Assembly: GCF_030063205.1 (NCBI RefSeq)
Contig: NZ_JASISQ010000001.1
Coordinates: 124,001-188,000 of the forward strand
Source: Arthrobacter antibioticus
GTDB taxonomy: Bacteria; Actinomycetota; Actinomycetes; Actinomycetales; Micrococcaceae
Length of the DNA: 64,000 bases
Direction: 5' to 3'
This document shows, piece after piece, positions 12,347 through 55,494 of this stretch. Position 1 is the first letter of the stretch, and each line of letters begins with the position of its first letter. Below the pieces are notes generated by a model that was given only the letters and a program-made list of their open reading frames with translations, ran no database searches and was not told the origin of the DNA. The position numbers and the translations under genes were made by a program.

Positions 12347-13240
12347 ATGAGTCAGCACGTTGAACCTGGGACTAGTCCCGTCGTTGAACCTGACGAACGT
12401 ACCCGAGACCGCGTCTTAACTGCCGTCCTTGAACAAGGACCTGTGAGCGCCGCGCAACTGGGCGCTTTGCTGGGATTGACCCCGGCTGCGGTCCGCAGAC
12501 ATCTGGACTCCTTGACTCGTGAGGGACTCATCGAAGTAAAACTCATCAGCAATGCCAAGAGTGGCGCTGGCAGGCCCGCTCGACGCTATGTTGTTTCGAG
12601 GCGTGGTCAAACCGAAATTGGTGATGACTACTTGGAAATCGCCAAGCTTGCGCTGCAAGAGATTGCTGGCACACATGGCGAGATAGGCGTTGTTGAGTTC
12701 GCCCGGCGCCGCTTCGCAAAAATGGAAGCAAAATACCAGCCTATCGTTGACGCTGCCGGAACAGATGTAGCCGCCAGGTCCAAGGCGCTCGCTACTGCCT
12801 TGAACAACGACCGGTTTGTAGCCACATCCAATTCACTCAATGCCGGCACTGCCATGGCTGCCGAGCAGCTGTGCCAAGGCCACTGCCCCATTCAAGAACT
12901 TGCTACTTCTTTTCCCGACTTCTGCGATGCTGAGACCGATGTTTTTGCTAGGCTCATCGGCGTAGACGTGCGAAGGCTCTCCACCATGGCTAGTGGAGGA
13001 CACGTCTGCACAACTCACGTTCCCACTGGCAGAGCCGTGGTGCGCAAGTTGGCCACGGCGCCCAGTTACACAGCACCCCAGGGTGCAATGCCCCAGGGCA
13101 CAACCCAAACCACCCCTGCACCACGCCGGATAATGCGTTCAAGCAGTGTCCAATCGAGAAGTGCACCGGCAACTACTGTTACGGCGGGCAAACAACGCCC
13201 GTCGAACCAAATTTCCAACCATCAGCAAGAAAGGCCGTGA
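12347..13240 (+). CDS. sufR: Iron-sulfur cluster biosynthesis transcriptional regulator SufR
   Basis: DNA-binding repressor of the suf operon that senses a [4Fe-4S] cluster. An N-terminal winged helix-turn-helix (about residues 20-85, with [20 protein letters not shown]) is followed by a dimer region and a cysteine set Cys176, Cys180, Cys193 and Cys221. The first three match the cluster ligands expected in SufR. The last 60 residues are Ala/Thr/Ser-rich. The start at 12347 follows GGAGG by 6 bases; the in-frame GTG at 12335 overlaps that site and is rejected. The stop overlaps the sufB start (TGATG), so the operon is tightly coupled. Confidence 0.93.
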
Positions 13241-14715
13241 TGACGGATCAATTAGCGCAGGATGTAGGCGCGAAGACTGCTGTCGAAGACACCACAATTA
13301 CCCACATCCTCGAGGCAAACCCGGAACTGGAAGGCTTGGGAAACTACGCCTTCGGCTGGTCGGATAAAAACGAGTCCAGCGACAATGCCCGCCGTGGCAT
13401 CAGCGAGGAAGTAGTCCGCGACATCTCGGCCAAAAAGGGCGAGCCACAGTGGATGCTGGACATGCGGTTGAAGGGGCTAAAGTACTTCGACCGTAAGCCC
13501 ATGCCGACATGGGGTGCTGACCTCTCCGGCATTGACTTCGATAACATCAAGTACTTCGTGCGCTCCACGGAAAAGCAGGCGACTACGTGGGAGGAGCTGC
13601 CGGAAGATATCCGCAACACCTACGAAAAGTTGGGCATCCCCGAAGCTGAACGCAACCGTCTGATCGGTGGCGTGACGGCCCAATATGAGTCCGAAGTTGT
13701 CTACCACCAGATCCGCGAGGATTTGGAAGAGCAGGGTGTTATCTTCACTGACACCGATACAGGATTGCGTGATTACCCTGAACTCTTCCAGGAGTACTTC
13801 GCCACCATGATTCCGATCGGTGATAACAAGTTTGCTTCGCTGAATACAGCAGTATGGTCTGGCGGTTCATTCGTGTATGTTCCCCCGGGCGTTCAGGTGG
13901 AAATACCTCTTCAGGCCTACTTCCGCATCAATACCGAGAACATGGGCCAGTTTGAGCGCACGCTCATCATCGCTGATGAGGGAAGCTACGTTCACTACAT
14001 TGAGGGTTGCACGGCACCGGTCTACACAACCGACTCACTGCACTCCGCTGTCGTGGAGATCGTGGTTAAGAAGAACGCTCGCGTTCGGTACACCACCATC
14101 CAGAACTGGTCCAACAACGTGTATAACTTGGTGACAAAGCGCGCCATTGCACATGAGGGCGCCACCATGGAGTGGGTTGACGGCAATATCGGCTCGAAGG
14201 TCACCATGAAGTACCCGGCCGTTTATTTGGTCGGCGAGCATGCCAAGGGTGAGACCCTCTCGGTTGCATTTGCGGGCCCGGGCCAGCATCAGGACACCGG
14301 ATCCAAGATGGTCCACATTGCGCCAAACACGCAGTCTTCGATCATCTCCAAATCTGTTGCCCGAGGTGGCGGACGCTCTGCGTACCGTGGTTTGGTGCAA
14401 ATCCGTGAAGGTGCAAACCACTCGGCCAACACTGTTCGTTGCGACGCATTGTTAGTTGACACCATTTCTCGCTCAGATACTTACCCCTACGTTGACGTTC
14501 GTGAAGACGATGTCTCCATGGGGCACGAGGCAACAGTCTCGAAGGTCAGTGAGGAGCAGCTGTTCTACCTGCAGTCCCGCGGTATGCCAGAAGACGAGGC
14601 CATGGCCATGATCGTTCGTGGCTTCATCGAGCCGATTGCCAAGGAACTGCCCATGGAATACGCCCTCGAATTGAACCGCCTGATTGAACTGCAGATGGAA
14701 GGGGCCGTCGGCTAA
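13240..14715 (+). CDS. sufB: Fe-S cluster assembly protein SufB
   Basis: Scaffold subunit of the SufBCD complex that builds Fe-S clusters in the cytoplasm. It has 491 residues from ATG 13240 (AGAAAGG upstream), the usual length, with the beta-helix core (the segment [14 protein letters not shown]) and the C-terminal region [20 protein letters not shown]. The stop abuts sufD without a gap. No intein is present, unlike the SufB of M. tuberculosis. Confidence 0.97.
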
Positions 14716-16032
14716 ATGACCGAGCTCAAGCAAGAACACGAAACAGAGTCAAAAGTATGGTCGCAGGACTTCATTAAGGGCATGACCGAGGAGGGCGAAA
14801 GCCTTTCCGAGATCAATCCCGAGTCCGGTCCCCTTGGTGGCAGTGCTGCCAAAGCACACAGCCACGGCGGCGACAGCCATGGTGGTGGGGTAGGGATTCC
14901 CGACAGCTCACGTGCAGGCCGCAAGACCTCATACAAGCTCGCCGACTTCCCTGCTATCACTGGCCGCGAAGAAGACTGGCGCTTCACACCGCTCAAGCGC
15001 CTGCGTGGCCTTGACCGCGTGGGTATCAAGGGCCAAGAGCTTAGCGGCCCAGGCCCTCTGGTAGTAGTCTCCGGCCCCGACGAAGTCACAGTTGAGACTG
15101 TTGGGCGCGATGATTCACGCATCGGTTGCGCCGGCATTCCCGAGGATCGCGTATCCGCGGCCGCCTGGGAGAACTTCAAGGAAGCCACTGTTGTTACTCT
15201 GCCTGCAGAATTCGCAGGCACCGCAGATAATCTCACCACTTTGACCCTGACGGGTCAGGGAGACTCACCAGCGGCAGCCCACATAGTGGTTGTGGCGAAG
15301 AAATTTGCAACAGGCGTTGTTGTCCTTGACCACCGTGGAACAGCTGTTCTCAGTGAAAACGTCGAGGTCCTTGTTGAAGATGGTGCAAACCTCACGGTTG
15401 TCAGCATCCAGGACTGGAACGACGACGCTGTGCACGCCAGCGCCCAGCACATCAAGGTTGGCCGCGATGCAAAGGTCAAGCACGTAGTCATCAACCTCGG
15501 TGGCGATTTGCTGCGCACCACACCTGCCGCTCGCTTCACAGGTACTGGAGGTGACGTTGAAATGAACGGGCTCTACTTTGCAGATGCTGGTCAGCACCTT
15601 GAGCAGCGCCTCTTTGTGGATCACTCCACGAAGCACTGCAAGTCTCGTGTCACGTACAAGGGTGCCTTGCAGGGCGACGGTGCACATGCTGTCTGGATTG
15701 GCGATGTTCTCATTCGTGCGGAAGCCGAGGGCACTGACACCTACGAGCTGAACCGTAACCTGATTCTTACCCAGGGTGCCCGTGCCGACTCCGTGCCCAA
15801 CTTGGAAATTGAGACTGGTCTGATTGAAGGGGCTGGACACGCAAGTGCAACCGGTCGTTTCGACGACGAACAGTTGTTCTATCTCCAGGCTCGCGGCATT
15901 GAGGAAAGCGTTGCCCGCCGTCTGGTGGTCCGTGGTTTCTTGAACGAGGTCATCCAGAGCATTCGGGTTCCGGCCCTTGAAGAACGTTTGCGCGAGTCCG
16001 TGGAACGCGAATTGGCGGCGACACCACAATGA
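14716..16032 (+). CDS. sufD: Fe-S cluster assembly protein SufD
   Basis: Partner of SufB in the SufBCD scaffold. It has 438 residues, with the conserved core EDWRFTPLKRL near residues 86-96 and the C-terminal SATGRFDDEQLFYLQARGI. An unusual feature is a His/Gly-rich stretch near residues 50-62 (AHSHGGDSHGGG) before the fold begins, which could bind metal. It begins directly after the sufB stop and its own stop overlaps the Rieske gene as ATGA. Confidence 0.96.
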   Translation: MTELKQEHETESKVWSQDFIKGMTEEGESLSEINPESGPLGGSAAKAHSHGGDSHGGGVGIPDSSRAGRKTSYKLADFPAITGREEDWRFTPLKRLRGLDRVGIKGQELSGPGPLVVVSGPDEVTVETVGRDDSRIGCAGIPEDRVSAAAWENFKEATVVTLPAEFAGTADNLTTLTLTGQGDSPAAAHIVVVAKKFATGVVVLDHRGTAVLSENVEVLVEDGANLTVVSIQDWNDDAVHASAQHIKVGRDAKVKHVVINLGGDLLRTTPAARFTGTGGDVEMNGLYFADAGQHLEQRLFVDHSTKHCKSRVTYKGALQGDGAHAVWIGDVLIRAEAEGTDTYELNRNLILTQGARADSVPNLEIETGLIEGAGHASATGRFDDEQLFYLQARGIEESVARRLVVRGFLNEVIQSIRVPALEERLRESVERELAATPQ

Positions 16033-16385
16033 GTGATTCCTCCACGCCCGCCGGAGTCGTTGTCTGCCAAGATGACGAAGTTCAGGTGAAGTCGTCCTTG
16101 CTTGTTGAGATTGACGATTATCCCATCGCCATTGTGAGGGACTCCTACGGGGAGCTGCACGCAATTGGGGATACCTGCTCACACGCAGAGATCTCCTTGA
16201 GCGAAGGCGACGTGGAGGACGGCACAATCGAATGCTGGGCACATGGCAGCTCTTTTGATCTTTCATCAGGTCAGCCGCTGACATTGCCAGCCTTCGAACC
16301 TGTTCCCGTCTTTGCCCTAGCCGTTCACGGCAGCGACGTCTATGTGGACGTCACCAACATTCTTAACGGTGTCAGCACGCAGTAG
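16029..16385 (+). CDS. Rieske-type [2Fe-2S] ferredoxin in suf operon
   Basis: A 118-residue Rieske-fold protein with the ligand pairs Cys50-x-His52 and Cys69-x2-His72 (CSHAEISL, CWAHGSSFDL). Annotated in relatives as a non-heme iron oxygenase ferredoxin subunit, it sits between sufD and sufC in many actinobacteria. That suggests it supplies electrons for cluster assembly or repair rather than for an oxygenase, since none is encoded nearby. This role is inference. It overlaps sufD by 4 bases and is followed by 41 bases before sufC. Confidence 0.9.
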   Translation: MSDSSTPAGVVVCQDDEVQVKSSLLVEIDDYPIAIVRDSYGELHAIGDTCSHAEISLSEGDVEDGTIECWAHGSSFDLSSGQPLTLPAFEPVPVFALAVHGSDVYVDVTNILNGVSTQ

Positions 16386-16426
16386 CGTAGCGACCCGCAA
16401 ACACACTTTTTAGGAGAAAATAGAGT

Positions 16427-17194
16427 ATGTCTACTCTGGAAATCAAGGATCTGCACGTTAGCATCACCACTGAGCAAGGCACCAAGTCGATCCTCAAGGG
16501 TGTCAGCTTAACCATCAACACAGGCGAAACCCACGCCATCATGGGCCCCAACGGTTCCGGTAAGTCAACGCTCGCGGCAACTATTGCAGGTCACCCGCGT
16601 TACACGGTGGACAGTGGATCCATCACTCTCGACGGCGAAGACGTTCTGACAATGACTGTCGATCAGCGTGCCCGCGCCGGCTTGTTCCTGGCCATGCAGT
16701 ACCCGGTAGAAATCCCCGGCGTGACCATGACCAACTTCTTGCGTACCGCAAAGACCGCGATCGACGGCGAAGCCCCCAAGTTGCGTACCTGGACCAAGGA
16801 CGTCAAGGCTGCCATGGCGCAGCTGCGGATCGAGCCGGAGTTCGCCGAGCGCAACGTCAACGAAGGTTTCTCCGGTGGCGAGAAGAAGCGTCATGAGATT
16901 CTCCAGCTTGAACTGCTCCATCCCAAGTTCGCAGTTCTGGATGAGACGGACTCCGGTCTTGACGTTGACGCATTGAAAGTTGTTGCCGAGGGCGTAAACC
17001 GTGCAATCGACGCCGGTGGACTGGGCACTGTGCTCATCACCCACTACACACGCATCCTGCGTTACATCAAGCCGCAGTTTGTCCACGTGTTCGTCGATGG
17101 CACCATCGCAGAACAGGGCGGCCCGGAACTTGCAGACCGCTTGGAAAATGAAGGCTACGACCGTTTCTTGGTTGCCGAGTCAACAACGGCCTAA
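16427..17194 (+). CDS. sufC: Fe-S cluster assembly ATPase SufC
   Basis: ABC-type ATPase of the SufBCD complex. It has 255 residues, Walker A GPNGSGKST, the SufC-specific signature FSGGEKKRHEILQ, and Walker B AVLDETDSGLD followed by ITHYTRIL. A TTTAGGAGAAAA ribosome-binding site precedes ATG 16427. The cysteine desulfurase sufS and scaffold sufU that usually follow in actinobacteria are absent here. Confidence 0.97.
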   Translation: MSTLEIKDLHVSITTEQGTKSILKGVSLTINTGETHAIMGPNGSGKSTLAATIAGHPRYTVDSGSITLDGEDVLTMTVDQRARAGLFLAMQYPVEIPGVTMTNFLRTAKTAIDGEAPKLRTWTKDVKAAMAQLRIEPEFAERNVNEGFSGGEKKRHEILQLELLHPKFAVLDETDSGLDVDALKVVAEGVNRAIDAGGLGTVLITHYTRILRYIKPQFVHVFVDGTIAEQGGPELADRLENEGYDRFLVAESTTA

Positions 17195-17229
17195 ACGCTG
17201 CACAACTCAACCATCGCTAAGAAGGAATC

Positions 17230-17580
17230 ATGACTGACATCAGCGAAACAAGCGCACCCATTGTTGCTGGCCAAACTGACCTCGAAGACGTCGAAGAAGC
17301 ACTCAAGGACGTCATTGACCCCGAGCTTGGGGTTAACATCGTTGACTTGGGACTGCTGTACGGCCTGCGGTATGGAGACGACGGCGCCTTGCTGTTGGAC
17401 ATGACGCTCACCACAGCGGCCTGCCCCTTGCAGGACGTCATCGAAGAACAGGTTGAAAACTCACTGAACCCCATTGTGGATGAATGGCGGATCAACTGGG
17501 TGTGGATGCCGCCGTGGGGTCCGGAGAAAATCACGGACGACGGCCGGGATCAGATGCGGGCCTTGGGCTTCAACATCTAA
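17230..17580 (+). CDS. sufT: SufT / MIP18 (DUF59) family Fe-S assembly factor
   Basis: 116-residue DUF59 (MIP18/PaaD) protein, the last gene of the operon; the family helps Fe-S protein maturation. Motifs include DVIDPELGVNIVDLGLLY (about residues 26-43) and TTAACPLQD with the conserved Cys near residue 62. A GAAGGA ribosome-binding site lies about 5 bases before the ATG. Transcription should end at the long hairpin 11 bases past its stop. Confidence 0.93.
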   Translation: MTDISETSAPIVAGQTDLEDVEEALKDVIDPELGVNIVDLGLLYGLRYGDDGALLLDMTLTTAACPLQDVIEEQVENSLNPIVDEWRINWVWMPPWGPEKITDDGRDQMRALGFNI

Positions 17581-18726: not shown

Positions 18727-20469
18727 ATGGAAACCCGAATCTCCTCTACGATGAAGAGGATGCCTTTCATCGAGAAACTCAAGGACTGGGCTAGTAGTCG
18801 TGGCGGCGATTGCGCGCTGGTTGCAGGCGAACAACGTTATAGTTTTGCCCAGCTGCTCCAAGCTGCGCAAACTGTTCACAAGGACCCAGCTACTAACCCG
18901 GCAATGAACTTGATCCCGGACACTGTCCACGGACTGGTCCCGGGGATTTCCGTGAGCGCAGATAGTTCAACTGCTGGCCAGCTAGTGGTCATTGACGCTG
19001 CTTCCGGGGCAGACCTGGTGGTCGAATTTTGTGGTGCTGTCTTCCACTCCCTGACGGCAATGGTACTGGAAAACGGCTGGCCGCTTGCCCTGCGCCAAGA
19101 CTTGAAAGGTGCAGCAGAGGCCTGGCTAGAAGAACGGAACAATGACGTATCGCCGCCGTTCTTACTCGGTCTTTCTTCCGGGACCAGCGGTCTGCCCAAA
19201 GCGTTTGTTCGCAACGCCGACTCGTGGGAAACCTCCTTCGCAAATAGCACGGAGTACTTCGGGCTGGGAACTGAGACGGTGACACTAGCACCCGGGCCGC
19301 TGGCTGCCAGCATGAATCTCTATGCTCTGGGCGAGTCCATCTATGCAGGATCCACTTTCGTCATCCTGCCCAGCTTCAATGCCGATGCTGCTTTATTAGC
19401 AATAGCACGCAACAAAGTTAACCGTGTTGTGCTGGTGCCAACTATCCTTGACCTGCTAGCGGCCCGCGGTTTAGCAACAAAACAAAGCGGGGACGGAATT
19501 TCCTCCATTCTTTGCGCAGGTTCTGTGCTGTCTGCATCCACTGTGGCATTGGCTCATCAATGGGCACCCAATGCACAAATACAGCAGTATTATGGTGCCG
19601 CAGAACTGGGTTTCGTTGCCGCTTCCACACTAAAATTTGCGCCCACAAACTCGATCCTGGCACGGCCCCAGGATTTGAACTTGCCGTCCGCACCAGAGCT
19701 CCAAGGTAACTCTTCTCTCGTAGATGTCACTAAAGGTGCGGTGGTTAGGAAAGCAGGAGAGGACACCCCTGCCGGAGTTGGCACAGCATTTCCTAGAGTG
19801 GAGATCAGCATTCGGGATGAAGTTGGCAACCTCCTACCAGCGGGGCAGTCAGGCTATATTTTCGTCAAAAGTCCTTATGTTTGCTGTGGCTACGCATGGG
19901 GTGACGATGGGTTGGCCTTCGGTACTCTCAGAGCTGACAAGCACACAGTTTCCCCTGCTTCATTGTCCCCTGCTCCATTTTCCTCTGCCCCATTGGACAG
20001 TGGTGATGACGGGCAGTGGTGCACTGTCCGTGATCAAGGCCATCTTGATTCCCAAGGTGTCCTGCATGTAGCCGGCCGAGCCAGTGACATGATCATCGTG
20101 GCCGGCACGAATGTTTATCCGCACCATGTTGAGGAAGTCCTGGCGATGGCTGATAACTGTGCCGGTGTGCTCACAATTGTTGTCACAGGTATTGCCGATC
20201 CCGTCAGGGGTCAGCGCGTTGTTGCAGGAATTTACAGCTCTGCAAGCCGCCTGGATGGAGATCACAGCGCCACAGGCAGCACCACGGCAGGTGCGGTTTC
20301 CTTCATGGCGGCACTTCGCCACGTGGCATCAACATTAACAGCGCAGCAACGCCCAACCAGGTACTTTGAAATGTTGGAACTGCCGCTAACTAATAGCGGC
20401 AAAATTAGCAGGGCCATCCTCTCCCAGTGGATCAACGAAGGGGACACCCGTGCCCAGCGAATTACCTAG
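18727..20469 (+). CDS. AMP-forming acyl-CoA synthetase (YhfT-like)
   Basis: Adenylates a carboxylic acid and forms its CoA thioester. The 580-residue protein has the phosphate-binding loop GLSSGTSGLPKAF (residues 148-160), the adenine motif YYGAAELGF, the hinge region ASDMIIVAGTNVYPHHVEEVL and a C-terminal NSGKISR with the catalytic Lys. Starts at residues 9 or 12 (18751, 18760) are possible. It overlaps the thiolase gene by 20 bases and the biotin transporter operon converges from the other side. In Bacillus subtilis the ligase yhfT, thiolase yhfS and bioY-type yhfU form one locus, so a role in making or salvaging a pimelate-type biotin precursor is plausible but unproved. Confidence 0.88.
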   Translation: METRISSTMKRMPFIEKLKDWASSRGGDCALVAGEQRYSFAQLLQAAQTVHKDPATNPAMNLIPDTVHGLVPGISVSADSSTAGQLVVIDAASGADLVVEFCGAVFHSLTAMVLENGWPLALRQDLKGAAEAWLEERNNDVSPPFLLGLSSGTSGLPKAFVRNADSWETSFANSTEYFGLGTETVTLAPGPLAASMNLYALGESIYAGSTFVILPSFNADAALLAIARNKVNRVVLVPTILDLLAARGLATKQSGDGISSILCAGSVLSASTVALAHQWAPNAQIQQYYGAAELGFVAASTLKFAPTNSILARPQDLNLPSAPELQGNSSLVDVTKGAVVRKAGEDTPAGVGTAFPRVEISIRDEVGNLLPAGQSGYIFVKSPYVCCGYAWGDDGLAFGTLRADKHTVSPASLSPAPFSSAPLDSGDDGQWCTVRDQGHLDSQGVLHVAGRASDMIIVAGTNVYPHHVEEVLAMADNCAGVLTIVVTGIADPVRGQRVVAGIYSSASRLDGDHSATGSTTAGAVSFMAALRHVASTLTAQQRPTRYFEMLELPLTNSGKISRAILSQWINEGDTRAQRIT

Positions 20470-21688
20470 CTCCACCTCCGGAACTCCAACCACAACAAGC
20501 GATCCCGACACAACAGCCGTCATCATTGCGGGCAGACGGCTTCCCACAGCGAAAGCAGGGGGTGCCTATAAGAAATACCGGGCCCATGAACTTGCCTCTG
20601 TCGTCATTAGAGACCTGATTGCCCAATCCGGGATTCCAGTGTCGGAAATTAGTGATGTCATCCTGGGTAATGCTGTAGGTGGAGGTGGCAACGTTGCCCG
20701 GCTCGCCGCATTGACGGCTGGACTTCCGCACACTGTCACAGGACTTACTGTAGACAGGCAGTGTGGTTCGGGTTTGGAAGCCGTGGTGCTGGCCGCCAGA
20801 CTAGTTCAGGCCGGTGCGGGGGACCTCTATCTGGCAGGGGGAGTGGAGAGTATCAGCACCGCCCCTGCGCGGGCACACAGGCTGGCTGATGGCGGCCTTG
20901 AGTTTTTTGCGCGGGCACAGTTTGCGCCCGAGGACATTGGTGATCCAGATGCCGGTCAAGCGGCGGAGAATGTAGCCGCGCACTATGGCATTACACGCCA
21001 ACGCCAGGACGCCTACGCCTTAGAGAGCCATGACCGGGCGATCAAGGCGGCGCAGAAAGGGCACTTTGCAGATGAGCTTATCTCCTTCGCCGGACTCCTC
21101 GCCGATCAGGGGCCACGACCGAACCTTACGCCATCCCTGATGGCCCGCTTTCCCGCCGCTTTTGTACCCGGTGGAACCGTTACTGCAGGGAATTCATGCC
21201 CGTACAGTGATGGTGCGGCTTTGCTGCTTGTTACGTCTCTAACGCGAGCACGAGCAATTGCGAGTCAGCAAAGAATCACCGGAGAAAGTGCACGGGGATT
21301 GAAATTTATAGATAGTGCCGTGCTGGGCAATGAGCCTACCTTGCTCGGAGCTGGAGCCGCTTATTCCACCCGCAAGCTCATGTCCCGCACGGGCCTTAGC
21401 CGCAACGGGTTGGCTGCGGCCCTGGTCGAGTTCAATGAAGCTTTTGCCGCGCAAGTTCTGGCCGTTGCAGATCTTCTCGGAGTAGATCCCGGCATCTTTA
21501 ACCACGACGGCGGTGCCTTGGCCTTGGGGCATCCGTACGGGGCATCTGGGGCTGTCCTTGTGACGAGGCTGCTAGCCCGTGCCCGGCGCGGCGCCGATTT
21601 AGGCACAGATGCCCTCGCCATGATCAGCATGGCAGGTGGAATGGGTATTACAGCGCAATTCCAGTGGACTCAGATGCATGACTCGTAG
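20450..21688 (+). CDS. Thiolase-family protein lacking the second catalytic Cys (YhfS-like)
   Basis: 412-residue thiolase fold, starting at GTG 20450 with GAAGGGG upstream and overlapping the ligase gene by 20 bases. The nucleophile Cys105 (DRQCGSGLEA), NEAF at 329-332 and the His361 motif GHPYGASGA are all present. At the usual C-terminal CxGG site the sequence reads ISMAGGMG, with Met394 in place of the base Cys. A degradative or acetoacetyl-CoA thiolase would normally need that Cys, so the enzyme may run only one half reaction or act in decarboxylative or hydrolytic mode. Coupling to the ligase says both act on one substrate. Confidence 0.88.
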   Translation: MPSELPSSTSGTPTTTSDPDTTAVIIAGRRLPTAKAGGAYKKYRAHELASVVIRDLIAQSGIPVSEISDVILGNAVGGGGNVARLAALTAGLPHTVTGLTVDRQCGSGLEAVVLAARLVQAGAGDLYLAGGVESISTAPARAHRLADGGLEFFARAQFAPEDIGDPDAGQAAENVAAHYGITRQRQDAYALESHDRAIKAAQKGHFADELISFAGLLADQGPRPNLTPSLMARFPAAFVPGGTVTAGNSCPYSDGAALLLVTSLTRARAIASQQRITGESARGLKFIDSAVLGNEPTLLGAGAAYSTRKLMSRTGLSRNGLAAALVEFNEAFAAQVLAVADLLGVDPGIFNHDGGALALGHPYGASGAVLVTRLLARARRGADLGTDALAMISMAGGMGITAQFQWTQMHDS

Positions 21689-21842
21689 AACTAATAGAAC
21701 TTATAAGCTCAGTAGCCCCAGATAGACAGCTGCACATCGGTGCCGCCGGGGATCATGTTAGCCTCAGCACTTTTCTACCCACCATCGTCTCTGGAGTCTT
21801 CCAGGGACCTAAACTCTTCAGGGGCTCGGACTCTTGGTTGGG

Positions 21843-22487
21843 TTAGCTACTCTCAGGCTCACCGAGACCACGGGCGGCCAAGGCATCACCCGTGGCGCGG
21901 GCATAGCCCACTGTGGCAATGACCACCGGCAGTGAGCGGGCCAGTAGGTTTCTTTCAAGGCCTCGGGCGCGGGCTGCGTCACGGACATCGGCAAAGGCCC
22001 CTATGACAAAGGGGATGCTACGAAGCATCAGCGCCACTGTGAGAGAGAACCGTTCGGGGTCTGCACCAAACCGCTTTAACGGCATCACAAGCGCAGCCAA
22101 ACCATCCAGGAGCTCGTCAACGGGTGTTGAGGCCGTCAAAATGTTTGAAGCCAGCACTGTAGCGAGGATCGCGGCAATGACGCTCCAGGCGACCCATGGG
22201 CCGTGTTGCCACCACTGGTACCCCATGATCAGCACCAAAAAGATTAGCATCATTCGCACTGCTCGCCACATGCGCTGCCAGCTCAGACCGGCCAAAAAGT
22301 GCCCCACCACAACCACAACCAAGGTCAGGGTGGTTGTGCGAACGCCAACGCGCGTTGAAACTAACGGGGAGGCTAAACACAGAACGGCGATACTAAAAAG
22401 CAGGAGAGCTTTAATGCCCAGCGACAAGCGGTGAATCACCGAGGTTCCCGGGACATATCCGGCTACTAGAAAGGCCTGTCCGCGCAC
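21843..22487 (-). CDS. bioN: Energy-coupling factor transporter T component (BioN)
   Basis: 214-residue membrane protein with about five hydrophobic segments that couples the ATPase to the substrate-binding BioY. The two Ala-Arg-Gly signatures of ECF T proteins are present as DAARARGLE (about residues 172-180) and ALAARGLGE near the C-terminus. It starts with GTG at 22487, overlapping the bioM stop by one base (TAGTG). It is the last gene of bioY-bioM-bioN, on the minus strand, converging with the thiolase gene. Confidence 0.88.
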   Translation of the reverse strand: MRGQAFLVAGYVPGTSVIHRLSLGIKALLLFSIAVLCLASPLVSTRVGVRTTTLTLVVVVVGHFLAGLSWQRMWRAVRMMLIFLVLIMGYQWWQHGPWVAWSVIAAILATVLASNILTASTPVDELLDGLAALVMPLKRFGADPERFSLTVALMLRSIPFVIGAFADVRDAARARGLERNLLARSLPVVIATVGYARATGDALAARGLGEPESS

Positions 22488-23206
22488 TAGAGCGCCAACT
22501 CCCGGTACCGGGCGATCGCCTCTTGCGGATCGCCGTCGAACACTAAATCACCGTGGTCAATCACCAGAACACGGTGGAAGGTTGCGGCCAACGTGAGGTC
22601 GTGAGTAGACATGATCAACTGCTGAGGAAGTGTTTCAAGACGTTGCATGAGCATTCTCGTGTTGCGCAAATCAAGCAGGGTTGATGGCTCATCCAGCACC
22701 AATATCTCGGGAACAACGGCCAACACTGTGGCAAGGGCCGTCAGTTGACGTTCACCACCTGAAAGTTCATAGATGCTGCTTTCCGCCAAATGTTCAAGAC
22801 CGTAGTCCGCAAGGATGGCCAGGGCCTTGTTCTTGCGCTCCCGCTTACCCAGTTTCTGCCGGCGCAAAGACAGCTCTACGTCTTCTTGAGGTGTTGGCAT
22901 GACTAACTGGGACATGGGATCCGTAAAGACAAAGCCCACGCTGCGTCGCACCGCCGATGACTCAGTGATGGTATTGCGGCCATTGACAACGACCGTGCCG
23001 GTCGATGGGCGCACAAGCCCGTTCAGCATCCGCAATAAGGTCGATTTACCGGATCCGTTTGCGCCAATGACAGCAATTCGAGACTCGGTCAGCCGCAAGG
23101 TCAGAGGCGCCAGAATTCTTTTGGCGTCCTGGCGTCGAGGATCAATCGGGGGGATGCTGACACCGGCCTGTGTCAGGACAATGGTGTTTTGAGCAGAAGG
23201 GTTCAC
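22487..23206 (-). CDS. bioM: Energy-coupling factor transporter ATPase (BioM)
   Basis: ATP-binding subunit of the biotin ECF transporter. From GTG 23206 it has 239 residues, with Walker A GANGSGKST, signature LSGGERQL, Walker B ILVLDEPSTLLD and the H-loop STHDLTLA. The start overlaps the bioY stop as GTGA; the track-length open frame to 23443 runs through bioY and starts with unlikely sequence. Together with BioY and BioN it forms a dedicated (group I-like) biotin importer. Confidence 0.9.
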   Translation of the reverse strand: MNPSAQNTIVLTQAGVSIPPIDPRRQDAKRILAPLTLRLTESRIAVIGANGSGKSTLLRMLNGLVRPSTGTVVVNGRNTITESSAVRRSVGFVFTDPMSQLVMPTPQEDVELSLRRQKLGKRERKNKALAILADYGLEHLAESSIYELSGGERQLTALATVLAVVPEILVLDEPSTLLDLRNTRMLMQRLETLPQQLIMSTHDLTLAATFHRVLVIDHGDLVFDGDPQEAIARYRELAL

Positions 23207-23853
23207 TTGCTTCGACGGAGCAAAAGATCCGGGAACGCCCGGTGCAGGCTCAACGCAATGATCACGGCTAGAACATTCTTGAGAATGTCGCCCGGCAAAA
23301 AAACAACATCCGCGAGCATGGCCGTTGGCAGGCTCATGCCTTTGATGACAAATCCCACAATTCCACTGAGGTGAATAACTACTGTACCCGCCATGGCTGC
23401 AGCAAAAAGCGCAGCGGCTCGCCAGCGGCTGCGCACTGCCCACGTGGCCAGAAGGCCCACAGTTGCGGCACCGAAAATGAAGCCAATGATGTAACCAGCC
23501 GATGGGCTCGCCAACACTGCCGGGCCTGCCCGGAAACCGCTAAAAATTGGAAGCCCGATCAGCCCCAACAGCACGTACAGCCCTACGGCTGCAGTCCCTC
23601 GGGCAAAACCAAGAACAAGACCGCACAGCACTACCACCAGCGTCTGCAAGGTGATGGCTACGCCCGCTGGGCCAACATTGATGCCCGGTACTGCAATGGA
23701 CGCTGCCAAGAGAGCGGCAAAAACAGCGATCAGCGAGAGGTCCATAGCGCCCCATCGGACTCTCCGGGAGCGTAGCCCATCCTTATTGTTGGGCGCATCG
23801 GAGAGTGGAGTTGATGTACTCAATGTCTCATCCACAGGTCGTGAAAAACTCAT
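23203..23853 (-). CDS. bioY: Biotin transporter substrate-binding protein BioY
   Basis: 216-residue S component that binds biotin in the membrane. About 36 soluble residues precede six hydrophobic segments, with the BioY-type sequences GLVLGFARGTAAVGLYVLLGLIGLP (around residues 80-104), SPSAGYIIGF and FLPGDILKNVLA. It is the first gene of the biotin uptake operon and diverges from the ABC-F gene. A GAGTT-N5-AACTC palindrome lies 35 bases upstream and may be an operator. Confidence 0.93.
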   Translation of the reverse strand: MSFSRPVDETLSTSTPLSDAPNNKDGLRSRRVRWGAMDLSLIAVFAALLAASIAVPGINVGPAGVAITLQTLVVVLCGLVLGFARGTAAVGLYVLLGLIGLPIFSGFRAGPAVLASPSAGYIIGFIFGAATVGLLATWAVRSRWRAAALFAAAMAGTVVIHLSGIVGFVIKGMSLPTAMLADVVFLPGDILKNVLAVIIALSLHRAFPDLLLRRSK

Positions 23854-51822: not shown

Positions 51823-53205
51823 ATGACTACACCAACTACACCAGGCAACGAATCCAAGACGATAGATTCTAGCCAGCCAGCCACCACGAGGAAGACTGCA
51901 TCAGTCCCTGTGACACGCAAGGCTGTCATTGTCGGAGGCAACCGCATCCCCTTCGCACGGTCAGGCGGTGCCTACGCGCATTCGTCCAACCAGGACATGT
52001 TGACGGCCGCGCTCGATGGCCTCATTGCCCGTTTCGGTTTGGCAGATGAAGAAATCGGAGAAGTTGCCGCAGGAGCGGTGCTGAAACACTCCAGGGACTT
52101 CAATCTCACTCGCGAAGCAGTTCTTGGCTCCGCATTGGCAGCCACAACTCCCGCATACGACCTGCAGCAGGCGTGCGCCACGGGTATGGAAGCAGTCATT
52201 GGCCTGTCCAATAAGATCAAATTGGGCCAGATCGACTCCGCTATTGCAGGCGGCGTGGACTCTGCATCCGATGCACCCATTGCTGTCAGCGAGGGCCTGC
52301 GAGGAATTCTGCTTGATCTCAACCGAGCCAAAACAACGGGCCAGAAGCTGAAGATCCTCAGCCGAATCCGGCCCAAGGACCTTTCTCCCGACGCTCCCTC
52401 CACGGGTGAGCCACGCACTGGACTGTCAATGGGGGACCACCAAGCGCTCACCACGGCCCAATGGAAAATCAGCCGTGAAGCTCAGGACGAACTTGCCCTT
52501 GCCAGTCACAAGAATCTTGCGGCAGCATACGAGAACCACTTCTTCGATGACCTAATCACACCCTTCCGTGGACTCACACGCGATTCGAACCTCCGCGCCG
52601 ACTCCACCTTGGAGAAGTTGGCCAAACTCAAGCCAGCGTTCGGTAAATCACTCGGTGACGCGGCAACCATGACAGCAGGCAACTCCACCCCCCTGACCGA
52701 CGGCGCCTCCACAGTTCTACTGGCCTCCGAAGAGTGGGCAACGGCACGAGACCTGCCTATTTTGGCCGACGTCGTTGACGGGGAAGCGGCAGCAGTTGAC
52801 TTTGTTCATGGCAAGGATGGACTTCTTATGGCCCCGGCCTTCGCCGTACCCCGACTACTGGCACGCAACGGGCTGACACTTGATGACATCGATTACTTTG
52901 AAATTCATGAAGCCTTTGCCGGAACTGTTCTGAGCACCCTCGCAGCCTGGGCTGATGAAGACTTCGGTATCCAGCGACTGGGCCTCACCGGCGCCTTTGG
53001 CACCGTGGACCGGGCCAAACTCAATGTCAATGGATCCTCGCTCGCCGCCGGACACCCTTTTGCAGCAACAGGTGGGCGCCTCGTAGCAAGTTTGGCTAAA
53101 ATGCTCCACGAACGGGGTCAAGTCAATGGACGCCCGGCACGTGGGCTGATCTCGGTGTGCGCTGCAGGCGGTCAAGGCGTCGTGGCTATTTTGGAAGCAC
53201 GGTAG
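51823..53205 (+). CDS. Acetyl-CoA acyltransferase (FadA2/FadI-type thiolase)
   Basis: 460-residue thiolase cleaving 3-oxoacyl-CoA. The nucleophile Cys118 (QQACATGMEA), HEAF (in place of NEAF) typical of the FadI/SCP2-like branch, AAGHPFAATGG and the second Cys in SVCAAGGQG are all present. AAGGAGAG lies 8 bases before ATG 51823. The next two genes encode a FabG4-type reductase and a MaoC hydratase, so together with the acyl-CoA oxidase this locus covers all beta-oxidation steps. This gene order resembles Rv0241c-Rv0244c of M. tuberculosis as I recall it. Confidence 0.92.
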   Translation: MTTPTTPGNESKTIDSSQPATTRKTASVPVTRKAVIVGGNRIPFARSGGAYAHSSNQDMLTAALDGLIARFGLADEEIGEVAAGAVLKHSRDFNLTREAVLGSALAATTPAYDLQQACATGMEAVIGLSNKIKLGQIDSAIAGGVDSASDAPIAVSEGLRGILLDLNRAKTTGQKLKILSRIRPKDLSPDAPSTGEPRTGLSMGDHQALTTAQWKISREAQDELALASHKNLAAAYENHFFDDLITPFRGLTRDSNLRADSTLEKLAKLKPAFGKSLGDAATMTAGNSTPLTDGASTVLLASEEWATARDLPILADVVDGEAAAVDFVHGKDGLLMAPAFAVPRLLARNGLTLDDIDYFEIHEAFAGTVLSTLAAWADEDFGIQRLGLTGAFGTVDRAKLNVNGSSLAAGHPFAATGGRLVASLAKMLHERGQVNGRPARGLISVCAAGGQGVVAILEAR

Positions 53206-53209
53206 GAAC

Positions 53210-54586
53210 ATGAGTGCAGAGAAGAACACAGCCGGTCTGCGGGACAAGGCTGATAAGTATACAGAATTCGTCAGCCGCGGATTGGGCAAGGACCTGGCCA
53301 AGCGCTTGGGTCTACCCCAGCCGGCCATCCTCCGCCGGTATCATCCAGGTGCACCTCTTGTTGAGGGCCCAATCTTGGTTATAGGCGAGGGAGCAGGGCC
53401 CGACGCCGTTGCCAAGGTGCTGCTGAAATGGCAGCAGGATGTGCGCAGGCATGCGACACCAAAACAAAAACTTGGTGCCATCGTTGTTGTCTTGGATGAG
53501 TTAGAGCACCCAGACCAGCTCTCGGATGCCATGCTCACCCTGGGCTCGGCTCTGCGGGATTTGAACAAGAACGCTCGCGTGGTCAGCATCTCACGAACTG
53601 CTACTGCTAGAGACACTCCTGCTGTAGCCGCTGCCCGTAACGGTATTGACGGCATCATTCGTTCACTTGCCAAAGAACTCCGTGCCGGAGCTAGCGCCAA
53701 TGGGATTTTGCTGGCCAATGACATCTCGGCAGATTCACCCAGCGCAATGTCAGCCCTGCGCTTCTTCCTCTCCGGACGTTCAGCCTTCGTTGACGGTCAG
53801 TTCCTGACCGCATCTACGCGGGGTGAGAACGCCGAGACTGACTGGGAAAAGCCATTAAACGGAAACGTTGCAGTGGTGACCGGAGCAGCCCGGGGGATAG
53901 GTGCCGCAATTGCCCGCACGCTCGCACGTGACGGAGCAAGAGTAATCGTGGTGGATGTTCCTGGCGCCGGAGATCATTTGGCCGCCGTCGCCAATGAAAT
54001 TCACGGCACAGCACTCCAGCTGGACGTCACCACGCACGATGCTGGAGAACGCATCTTAGAACATGCCATCGCTCGCTATGGCAGGCTCGACGTTGTTGTG
54101 CACAATGCTGGTATTACGCGAGATAAATTGCTGGCGAATATGGATGCTGCCCGCTGGGACTCGGTGATAGCTGTGAACATCGCCTCTCAGCTGCGTATGA
54201 ATGAAGTATTTTTGGGCAGCAGTGACTTTGCGCAAAACTCACGCATTATCTCTGTATCTTCCACTAGCGGTATTGCCGGCAACCGTGGGCAAACCAACTA
54301 TGCTGCCTCGAAAGCAGGAGTCATAGGTATGGTCCGGGCCACCGCTCCTTTGCTTGCGCAGGGCGGCGGCACAGTAAACGCTGTTGCACCAGGTTTCATT
54401 GAAACCGAAATGACGGCCAAGATTCCTTTTGCTACTCGGGAAGTTGCGCGTCGTTTGAATAGCCTTCAGCAAGGTGGCAAGCCTAGCGACGTCGCAGAGG
54501 CGATCGCCTTCTTTGCCCAACCCGGTGCGGCGGGTATTACGGCCAATATCCTCCGTGTTTGTGGACAAAATCTGGTGGGACAATGA
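53210..54586 (+). CDS. 3-oxoacyl-CoA/ACP reductase, two-domain (FabG4-type)
   Basis: 458-residue high-molecular-weight FabG. Residues 1-215 form a flavodoxin-like, non-catalytic N-terminal domain typical of FabG4; residues 218-458 are the SDR with TGAARGIG (224-231), NAG (299-301), Ser351, Tyr364 and Lys368 (YAASK). It is an NAD(P)-linked interconverter of 3-oxoacyl- and 3-hydroxyacyl-CoA. It begins 5 bases after the thiolase stop and overlaps the MaoC gene as ATGA. Confidence 0.93.
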   Translation: MSAEKNTAGLRDKADKYTEFVSRGLGKDLAKRLGLPQPAILRRYHPGAPLVEGPILVIGEGAGPDAVAKVLLKWQQDVRRHATPKQKLGAIVVVLDELEHPDQLSDAMLTLGSALRDLNKNARVVSISRTATARDTPAVAAARNGIDGIIRSLAKELRAGASANGILLANDISADSPSAMSALRFFLSGRSAFVDGQFLTASTRGENAETDWEKPLNGNVAVVTGAARGIGAAIARTLARDGARVIVVDVPGAGDHLAAVANEIHGTALQLDVTTHDAGERILEHAIARYGRLDVVVHNAGITRDKLLANMDAARWDSVIAVNIASQLRMNEVFLGSSDFAQNSRIISVSSTSGIAGNRGQTNYAASKAGVIGMVRATAPLLAQGGGTVNAVAPGFIETEMTAKIPFATREVARRLNSLQQGGKPSDVAEAIAFFAQPGAAGITANILRVCGQNLVGQ

Positions 54587-55494
54587 CATCCGAGACCATG
54601 CTGACGCACATGCCCTCACTTTCCAAGCTCTACGTCAACGCCGCAGCCATGTCAGCTAAAAGCCGGCTCATCCGCTCCGCACCCGTGGTTGCACTGCCAG
54701 CCAGAGCAGTTGAGGTGCGTGGGGTGCAGGCAGATCTGGCGAAAGTGACTGAATTCGCTCACTTGATGGGGGAGCCCGCTAGGGATGTGCTACCATCCGG
54801 CTACCTGCATGCTCTCGTTTTTCCCGTTGCCATGAGCGTCATGGTCCAGGAAGATTTTCCACTTCCACTGTTGGGCATGATTCATTTGCGCAATGAAGTG
54901 GAGCATTTTGCGCCTGTTCTGTTCACCGACGAACTCTCTGTTCGGGCATGGGCACGGGAGCTGGCCGGGCATAGAAGCGGCACAAGTGTCCAGATCGTGG
55001 CCGAACTTCACAACGCTGACGGCACGGTGCTGCTGTGGCGTGGAGTCTCAACTTATTTGGCCAAGGGCGTGTTCCTGCCTGGGCTGGATAAACCAAGCGC
55101 AGCCCCAGCCCGCATTGAATTCAATCCGCCGGTACCTACTGCGCAGTGGAAACTTGGGGTGGATACTGGCCGGGCCTATGCGGCTGTCTCGGGGGACTTC
55201 AACCCGATCCATTTGAGCGTACTTAGCGCTAAGGCTCTGGGTTTGCATCGCTCAATTGCCCACGGCATGTACGCGGCTGCCCGCGTTTTGGCCACTGTTC
55301 CACAGGCCAAACCGGATGCTTTCAGCTGGAGTATCTCCTTTGATTCGCCCGTATTCCTGCCTGCAACAGTGTCACTGGAAGTTCTTGACCACAGAACTGA
55401 GGACGGAGTGTGGCTGAACTCCGAGTTCACGGCATGGAACGGGCACACCGCCCGGAAGTACTTCAGTGGCACAGTGACTGCCGGTTGCCCCTGA
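54583..55494 (+). CDS. MaoC-domain (R)-specific enoyl-CoA hydratase, HtdX-like
   Basis: 303-residue protein with two hot-dog halves. The C-terminal half has the hydratase-2 motif AAVSGDFNPIHLSVLSAKAL (catalytic Asp/His about residue 205-210) and AHGMYAA. The length matches double hot-dog hydratases such as HtdX. It hydrates trans-2-enoyl-CoA to the (R)-3-hydroxy form, feeding or taking from the FabG4-type reductase. Start ATG 54583 overlaps the reductase stop; 24 bases of the longer frame upstream are unlikely. Confidence 0.92.
   Translation: MTSETMLTHMPSLSKLYVNAAAMSAKSRLIRSAPVVALPARAVEVRGVQADLAKVTEFAHLMGEPARDVLPSGYLHALVFPVAMSVMVQEDFPLPLLGMIHLRNEVEHFAPVLFTDELSVRAWARELAGHRSGTSVQIVAELHNADGTVLLWRGVSTYLAKGVFLPGLDKPSAAPARIEFNPPVPTAQWKLGVDTGRAYAAVSGDFNPIHLSVLSAKALGLHRSIAHGMYAAARVLATVPQAKPDAFSWSISFDSPVFLPATVSLEVLDHRTEDGVWLNSEFTAWNGHTARKYFSGTVTAGCP

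Follow-up and report, generated by a model that had tools for sequence, protein, structure and literature searches.

A YhfT/YhfS-like ligase and thiolase pair converging with a BioY-type importer in Arthrobacter antibioticus, and its putative place in biotin acquisition

What does an acyl ligase do together with a thiolase-like protein next to the genes of a biotin importer? The question is raised by a stretch of 64,000 nucleotides from the 3.79-Mb genome of Arthrobacter antibioticus (contig NZ_JASISQ010000001.1, positions 124,001 to 188,000), which as a whole we call the window. It contains an adenosine monophosphate (AMP)-forming ligase and a thiolase-fold protein that face a BioY-BioM-BioN importer of the energy-coupling factor (ECF) type. 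The five genes, numbered from the first letter of the window, are:

18727 to 20469, plus strand: AMP-forming acyl ligase, YhfT-like, 580 amino acids (PF00501, E 4.9e-26; PRK07638/NF005797 is the top NCBIfam model)
20450 to 21688, plus strand: thiolase-fold protein, YhfS-like, 412 amino acids (PF00108/PF02803; PRK06690/NF005212 is the top NCBIfam model)
21843 to 22487, minus strand: BioN-type T component (EcfT/CbiQ; PF02361)
22487 to 23200, start uncertain, minus strand: BioM-type ATPase (PF00005; ECF_ATPase_1 at 154.2 bits, under its cut-off of 315)
23203 to 23853, minus strand: BioY-type S component (PF02632 at 121.4 bits, cut-off 25; alignment to the L. lactis BioY 4dve_A, E 4.4e-16)

The coordinates of the open reading frames (ORFs) and the Pfam labels of the five proteins (AMP-binding enzyme, thiolase, CbiQ, ATP-binding cassette (ABC) transporter and BioY) confirm what had been read from the letters alone, namely that a ligase and a thiolase overlapping by 20 bases on the plus strand converge with a complete bioY-bioM-bioN importer. 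A gap of 154 bases separates the thiolase from bioN, and bioN-bioM-bioY lie on the minus strand, so that there are two converging operons. The BioY domain has its A and T components adjoining it, as in a BioYMN importer. The longest bioM ORF (22487-23443) runs into bioY, and the real start is for this reason probably near 23200. The absence of bioA, bioB, bioD and bioF from the window was likewise borne out, since the organism's own Bio proteins give no match there at E 1e-3.

The tie between the pair and the importer extends well beyond this genome. A thiolase 65-78% identical to that of the window was found in all 21 same-genus genomes searched, and in the 20 whose neighbourhoods were checked (G010 was left out) the fetched stretch contained bioYMN in 17 cases. 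Outside the genus, 19 loci were hand-picked from the better hits by score and identity; 15 have bioY, two (L053, L059) show bioM and bioN before the contig ends, and two (L045, L048) have none of these genes, their bioY being placed on another contig or about 34 kb off. Three hits of similar score (G043, G051, G029) later proved to be ordinary thiolases. Of a further 20 stretches, 19 surround weaker hits and the last is a neighbouring stretch from G057. Six of the weaker-hit loci have bioM-bioN, and bioY as well except at one contig end, while the 13 others carry a thiolase with the catalytic residue Cys378 and no bioY.

Three gene orders recur. The complete series bioY-ligase-thiolase-bioM-bioN is present in 16 actinobacterial loci (L051, L052, L054-L058, L076-L078, L082, L123, L150, L151, L157, L159). 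The order bioM-bioN-bioY-ligase-thiolase is found in seven (L050, L063, L064, L065, L067, L068, L070), which belong to five Alphaproteobacteria (S. meliloti, two Azospirillum, Shinella, Shimia), one Streptantibioticus and one member of the window's family; and two Bacillota, Fictibacillus and Enterococcus, have bioY-ligase-thiolase. The biotin link that had been claimed for the pair was open to a comparison of bioY linkage across actinobacteria and Firmicutes, and it survives this comparison because the pair goes with bioY across phyla, three in all, and at the majority of loci with bioM/bioN too. The mere presence of BioY does not discriminate, being found in 33 of 33 pair-bearing and seven of eight pair-less genomes; the adjacency of pair and importer is more than chance. 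Clustering of the ORFs from 35 loci, judged by the 30 largest clusters, gave no third partner gene: apart from ligase, thiolase, BioY, BioM and BioN, no labelled family is common to all groups. In four annotated Rhizobiaceae loci (L062, L063, L066, L069; two of them checked with Pfam) the pair has genes for a 4HBT-type thioesterase and a zinc-binding dehydrogenase as neighbours.

The thiolase-fold protein was originally described as a variant, and this is correct. It shares its sequence family with biosynthetic and degradative thiolases (PDB 1ulq, E 3e-61; 4e1l, E 2.3e-59) and has their Cys89 and His348, but a serine in place of Cys378. Reading of the DNA together with the alignment places the catalytic positions as follows:

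20762 to 20764, plus strand: codon of Cys105, the thiolase nucleophile Cys89, present
21434 to 21436, plus strand: codon of Asn329, thiolase Asn316, present in the window
21530 to 21532, plus strand: codon of His361, thiolase His348, present
21626 to 21628, plus strand: codon of Ser393 at the position of thiolase Cys378, the second catalytic cysteine being lost

The same pattern runs through the family. Cys89 and His348 are each present in 64 of 64 family members and in 69 of 69 comparison thiolases, the latter taken from the best 80 of 593 stretches confirmed in a contig scan. Asn316 is found in 44 of the 64 (T, V or Q in the other 20) as against 69 of 69, and Cys378 in a single member as against 69 of 69, with S, A or G in the remaining 63. 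A Fisher test on these counts disregards common ancestry. An alignment of 14 diverse members shows Cys89 and His348 invariant and Cys378 missing throughout, whereas 13 of 13 more ordinary thiolases from the order, class or phylum, none of them near bioY, keep Cys378. In thiolases this cysteine is the base for carbon-carbon chemistry. The set of 64 rows was built from thiolase hits and gene context, with the 13 ordinary thiolases of the weaker-hit loci kept apart and the fragment L060 left out; L061 and L075 are the same gene, which makes 63 distinct members. Five rows have no bioY nearby (L045, L048, L062, L066, L069), three have it about 7, 10 and 21 kb off (L189, L194, L181) and three lie at contig ends with bioM/bioN only (L053, L059, L161).

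In a quick tree with a weak root, the 64 rows form one side of a single branch, with a support of 99 in the Shimodaira-Hasegawa-like approximate likelihood ratio test (SH-aLRT). The host family in this tree includes Arthrobacter and Paenarthrobacter relatives, and long branches lead to L110, L161, L050 and L049. Database names like acetyl-CoA C-acyltransferase (CoA, coenzyme A) are probably misleading for the YhfS-like clade. Within the genus, both genes are kept by purifying selection, since the ratio of nonsynonymous to synonymous substitution rates (Ka/Ks) is about 0.13-0.22 for the thiolase and 0.16-0.37 for the ligase in four pairs of genus relatives, the window not being among them.

A further line of evidence comes from regulation. 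The predicted actinobacterial site of BioQ, a biotin repressor, is TGAAC-N3-GTTCA (PMC3398298), and the organism's own genome has the perfect palindrome TTGAACACCGTTCAA before bioB. We scanned 46 loci (808 kb), the own bio operon included, for TTGAAC-N3-GTTCAA with at least 11 of the 12 fixed positions. Such an operator, of the same type as the site preceding the own bioB, heads nine actinobacterial pair-bearing clusters, or nine of the 45 window and cluster loci scanned, of which L061 and L075 are one place. All 12 positions match in L076, L077, L082, L123, L157 and L158, and 11 in L050, L056 and L057. Five of the nine sites fall within the longest bioY ORF, but where that ORF truly begins is uncertain; going by L123, whose ORF opens directly behind the site, they presumably precede the real start. 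Upstream of bioY in the window there is a palindrome, GAGTT-N5-AACTC, which was discarded, as it is not visible in the relatives compared.

Firmicutes use BirA for this control. Biotin-responsive regulation of yhfS-yhfT has been reported for Staphylococcus aureus, where SaBirA binds the promoter in vitro and, in an E. coli reporter strain, mediates its repression by biotin (PMC6391492), and in Corynebacterium glutamicum the expression of bioYMN, bioA and bioB rises on biotin limitation (PMC3398298). The BirA repression, the nine operators and the C. glutamicum induction together lead us to expect expression of the pair in biotin shortage. This argues against a breakdown product of biotin as the substrate, one of the options initially considered. 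The regulation also bears on the view that the two genes are ordinary beta-oxidation enzymes that came to lie beside bioY by chance. Both families are indeed very large, and both proteins match general models (acyl-CoA synthetase, acetyl-CoA C-acyltransferase); but the adjacency in three phyla, the single clade, the common loss of Cys378 and the operators in relatives contradict this view, which we consider hardly credible.

The closest described systems are yhfU-yhfT-yhfS of Bacillus subtilis and yhfS-yhfT of S. aureus. Their ligase and thiolase belong to the same model families as those of the window, and the Bacillota yhf systems likewise have a BioY-type S component beside the pair. The window differs from them in several ways: its bioY has bioM-bioN for neighbours, its operons converge and lack a BioQ-type site, and its proteins score under both family cut-offs, which the Fictibacillus locus (L072) passes with 537.6 against 518 bits for the ligase and 509.2 against 498 for the thiolase. 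The bioYMN of C. glutamicum is an actinobacterial BioY-BioM-BioN system like that of the window, induced on biotin limitation and taking up biotin, but it is a three-gene operon, and the word thiolase is absent from the main text of the report (PMC3398298). In the open-licence PMC literature we recognised no paper that treats either this operon of five genes or the missing Cys378 of YhfS, and our literature search found no biotin-related activity of the YhfT/YhfS pair.

Is the acid, then, pimelate or another precursor of biotin, as was first supposed? The ligase might make pimeloyl-CoA, or activate a dicarboxylate of greater or lesser length, to be turned into pimeloyl by the thiolase, for use by BioF. 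The genome has its own bioB-bioA-bioF-P450-bioD genes, about 450 kb off on the same contig and accompanied by a TetR-family gene that diverges from them, and so needs a pimeloyl source; the site before its bioB is of the type found before the relatives' clusters; and bioB occurs in 21 of 36 pair-bearing genomes (two of eight pair-less ones; 44 distinct genomes searched). The remaining 15 pair bearers lack bioB (G039, G047, G048, G049, G057, G059, G063, G073, G074, G079, G081, G090, G097, Shimia and Enterococcus), among which G049 and G097 are less than 90% complete and Shimia and Enterococcus come without a completeness figure. A BioF-like match above 50 bits is absent from four of 34 pair-bearing genomes (G063, G074, G081, Enterococcus); here only complete absence was counted, because BioF and its Kbl-type relatives are not told apart by the bioF model. 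Both counts leave out the duplicate genome G491 (= G048). Rhizobium etli CFN42, which carries the pair, is reported to be a biotin auxotroph (PMC8914248). Since without bioB no sulphur-free precursor becomes biotin by the known route, pimelate cannot be the general substrate. The loss of Cys378 from the thiolase also speaks against this route.

In the own bio operon, a P450-like gene lies between bioF and bioD (L042 5831-6898; a weak match to PF00067, 33.6 bits). By analogy with BioI it could be a candidate pimelate source in an actinobacterium, which speaks against the pair in that role; overall we regard the pimelate route as improbable. It is possible that in some recent auxotrophs the pair is a remnant, our measurement of selection having been confined to the genus. 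We also considered that the pair might replace biotin protein ligase, and rejected this, as each of the 37 genomes has a match to that enzyme; in 35 the match exceeds the cut-off, and these include all 30 pair bearers. A different comparison is offered by BioZ, which we count among the condensing enzymes of the broader thiolase superfamily. BioZ, a beta-ketoacyl-acyl carrier protein synthase III (KAS III)-like protein that starts biotin synthesis in Rhizobiales, is tied to biotin like the pair (PMC8024396), but it feeds synthesis, whereas the pair is also found without bioB; the two are likened by description, not by sequence.

The ligase conserves the motifs SGT..PK, YGA.E, GR and the GK lysine, with their familiar roles in adenylation. 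One residue deserves a line of its own:

20401 to 20403, plus strand: codon of Lys559, invariant in nine of nine aligned rows and presumably equivalent in position to the catalytic lysine of adenylating enzymes

Judged by its sequence, the ligase diverges rapidly: it is about 42-58% identical to its genus relatives, and four of its stretches are absent from more than 80% of them. A second YhfT-like ligase stands after bioN in three Nocardia, one Rhodococcus and G146; in L076, L077, L082, L123 and L157, where it closes the operon, the first ligase is short (368-379 amino acids). In L158 the ligase that ends the operon is the only one found. The interval from bioY to the thiolase in G369 showed no ligase, which leaves just the one after bioN.

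From the linkage, the operators in relatives, the residue pattern, the presence without bioB and the selection within the genus, all of them observed, we tentatively arrive at the following proposal, for which we would claim somewhat less than an even chance. The pair would be the YhfT/YhfS module of a biotin-acquisition regulon, in which the ligase adenylates an acid and its thiolase-fold partner transfers the acyl group. The ligase would activate a carboxylic acid to acyl-AMP and hand the acyl group over to the thiolase. The latter, having lost the Cys378 base, would no longer make or break carbon-carbon bonds; going by its residues, the acyl-enzyme half is the chemistry that remains to it. 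It would take the acyl group on Cys89 and pass it to a thiol (CoA or acyl carrier protein, ACP), to water or to another acceptor. Together, the two might form a two-protein acyl-thioester maker or acyl transferase for times of biotin shortage. As the thiolase lost the residue needed for the textbook reaction, the pair probably does something not yet described. According to a review, B. subtilis YhfT loads ACP and produces acyl adenylates, yet does not go on to CoA thioesters (PMC10988940), as would be expected if a partner were missing.

The acid itself may quite conceivably be biotin or a ring-complete vitamer, which would fit both the importer linkage and the genomes without bioB. A fatty acid, sparing the biotin-dependent acetyl-CoA carboxylase, is possible with more reserve, and would fit the report on YhfT and a biotin-sparing role; some other acid appears unlikely, and pimelate or another dicarboxylate decidedly so. 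The most specific version of our proposal, which we offer as a doubtful one, is a split acyl-thioester synthetase, in which the ligase would adenylate biotin or a ring-complete vitamer imported by BioY and the Cys378-less thiolase, as the half that forms the thioester, would receive it on Cys89 and transfer it to CoA, ACP or another acceptor. If true, this would be a step of biotin salvage or retention, of a kind that to our knowledge belongs to no described pathway.

In some bacteria, part of the requirement for biotin can be covered by fatty acids. This opens an explanation in which acetyl-CoA carboxylase fails at biotin shortage, and the pair, by turning scavenged or recycled fatty acids into acyl-ACP or acyl-CoA, gets round malonyl-CoA. 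It would work in genomes with and without bioB, is consistent with biotin-responsive regulation (BirA, BioQ-type sites) and draws on the reported part of YhfT in activating 3-hydroxy fatty acids and loading ACP (PMC10988940). Since it leaves unexplained both the position of the genes inside the importer operon in 16 actinobacterial loci and the fast divergence of the ligase, we think it possible but on the unlikely side.

Several points weigh against our reading of the pair as a module of biotin acquisition. The statement on YhfT concerns surfactin (3-hydroxy fatty acids), not biotin (PMC10988940). No BioQ-type site with at least 11 of 12 positions lies anywhere in the 64-kb window, neither operon having one, and 36 of the 45 window and cluster loci are without it. 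Among the 20 same-genus stretches only L191 and L192 have such a site, before bioY, and none has one before the ligase (the 5' end being unreachable in L183 and the gene split in L188). The suggestion that uptake and use are coordinated fits the relatives with one operon; in the window there are two, which converge and have no such site. Both enzymes score under the cut-offs of their families: the ligase reaches 184.7 bits against PRK07638/NF005797 (best of 90 models, cut-off 518) and the thiolase 328.9 bits against PRK06690/NF005212 (best of 35, cut-off 498). The PRK06690 cut-off is passed by none of 396 genomes of the phylum and by one of 14 control genomes, B. subtilis being among the eight controls that give matches. 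The ligase gene is broken or split in two loci, where it consists of two overlapping or adjacent ORFs (L063 6496-7993, S. meliloti Ak57, the frame being broken in the strain seen; L188 3605-5055, G011). Three Rhizobium plasmid records (L062, L066, L069; eight opened of 118 matched) have thioesterase-ligase-thiolase and no bioMNY in the stretch. Finally, the sole member to keep Cys378, from Enterococcus (L110), branches beside ordinary thiolases, although on a long branch whose placement is unsure; the tie to bioY may thus be older than the loss of Cys378.

A last point against it comes from B. subtilis, where YhfU is needed for high-affinity pantothenate uptake and has been renamed PanU (PMC11487621). 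For this reason a BioY-like sequence is no proof of biotin transport in the window, and the precedent that the original prediction drew from yhfT, yhfS and yhfU is weaker than stated, while the ligase and thiolase families are indeed the same. One might go further and suppose that the adjoining S component carries pantothenate, as YhfU does, and that the pair acts on a CoA-related acyl group; of the S-component double mutants of B. subtilis, only panC yhfU is reported to be inviable on medium containing pantothenate (PMC11487621). Yet yhfU is itself repressed by BirA (PMC11487621), nine actinobacterial clusters have BioQ-type sites, and C. glutamicum BioYMN takes up labelled biotin (PMC3398298), so that we find a pantothenate link very unlikely. 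The YhfU result leaves the biotin link standing in actinobacteria, where the operators are.

Two other groups of genes in the window may be mentioned. At 13237-17580, beside the cluster, lie iron-sulphur genes of the suf type, which we take from their sequences to be SufB-, SufD-, SufC- and DUF59-like; SufC and DUF59 homologues are also near the cluster in L052, L054/L055 and L058, from three other families of the order. At 51823-55494 a second, ordinary-looking thiolase (PRK09268, 740.4 bits, cut-off 539) is followed by a FabG-type reductase (PRK08261, 629.6 bits, cut-off 410) and by an ORF (54559-55494) with no NCBIfam match at 1e-40, an arrangement that presumably resembles mycobacterial fadA2-fabG4-htdX.

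That yhfT-yhfS of Firmicutes encode two putative enzymes under biotin control had been published before. What is new here is a definition of the pair that crosses phyla, by its company with BioY and by a thiolase lacking Cys378. The most natural guess about its function, the supply of pimelate, is removed as a general answer, and a small number of biochemical assays is what the question comes down to. As a module, the pair is widespread and regulated by biotin; in A. antibioticus it is present as two converging operons, and its chemistry, as predicted from sequence, is putative.

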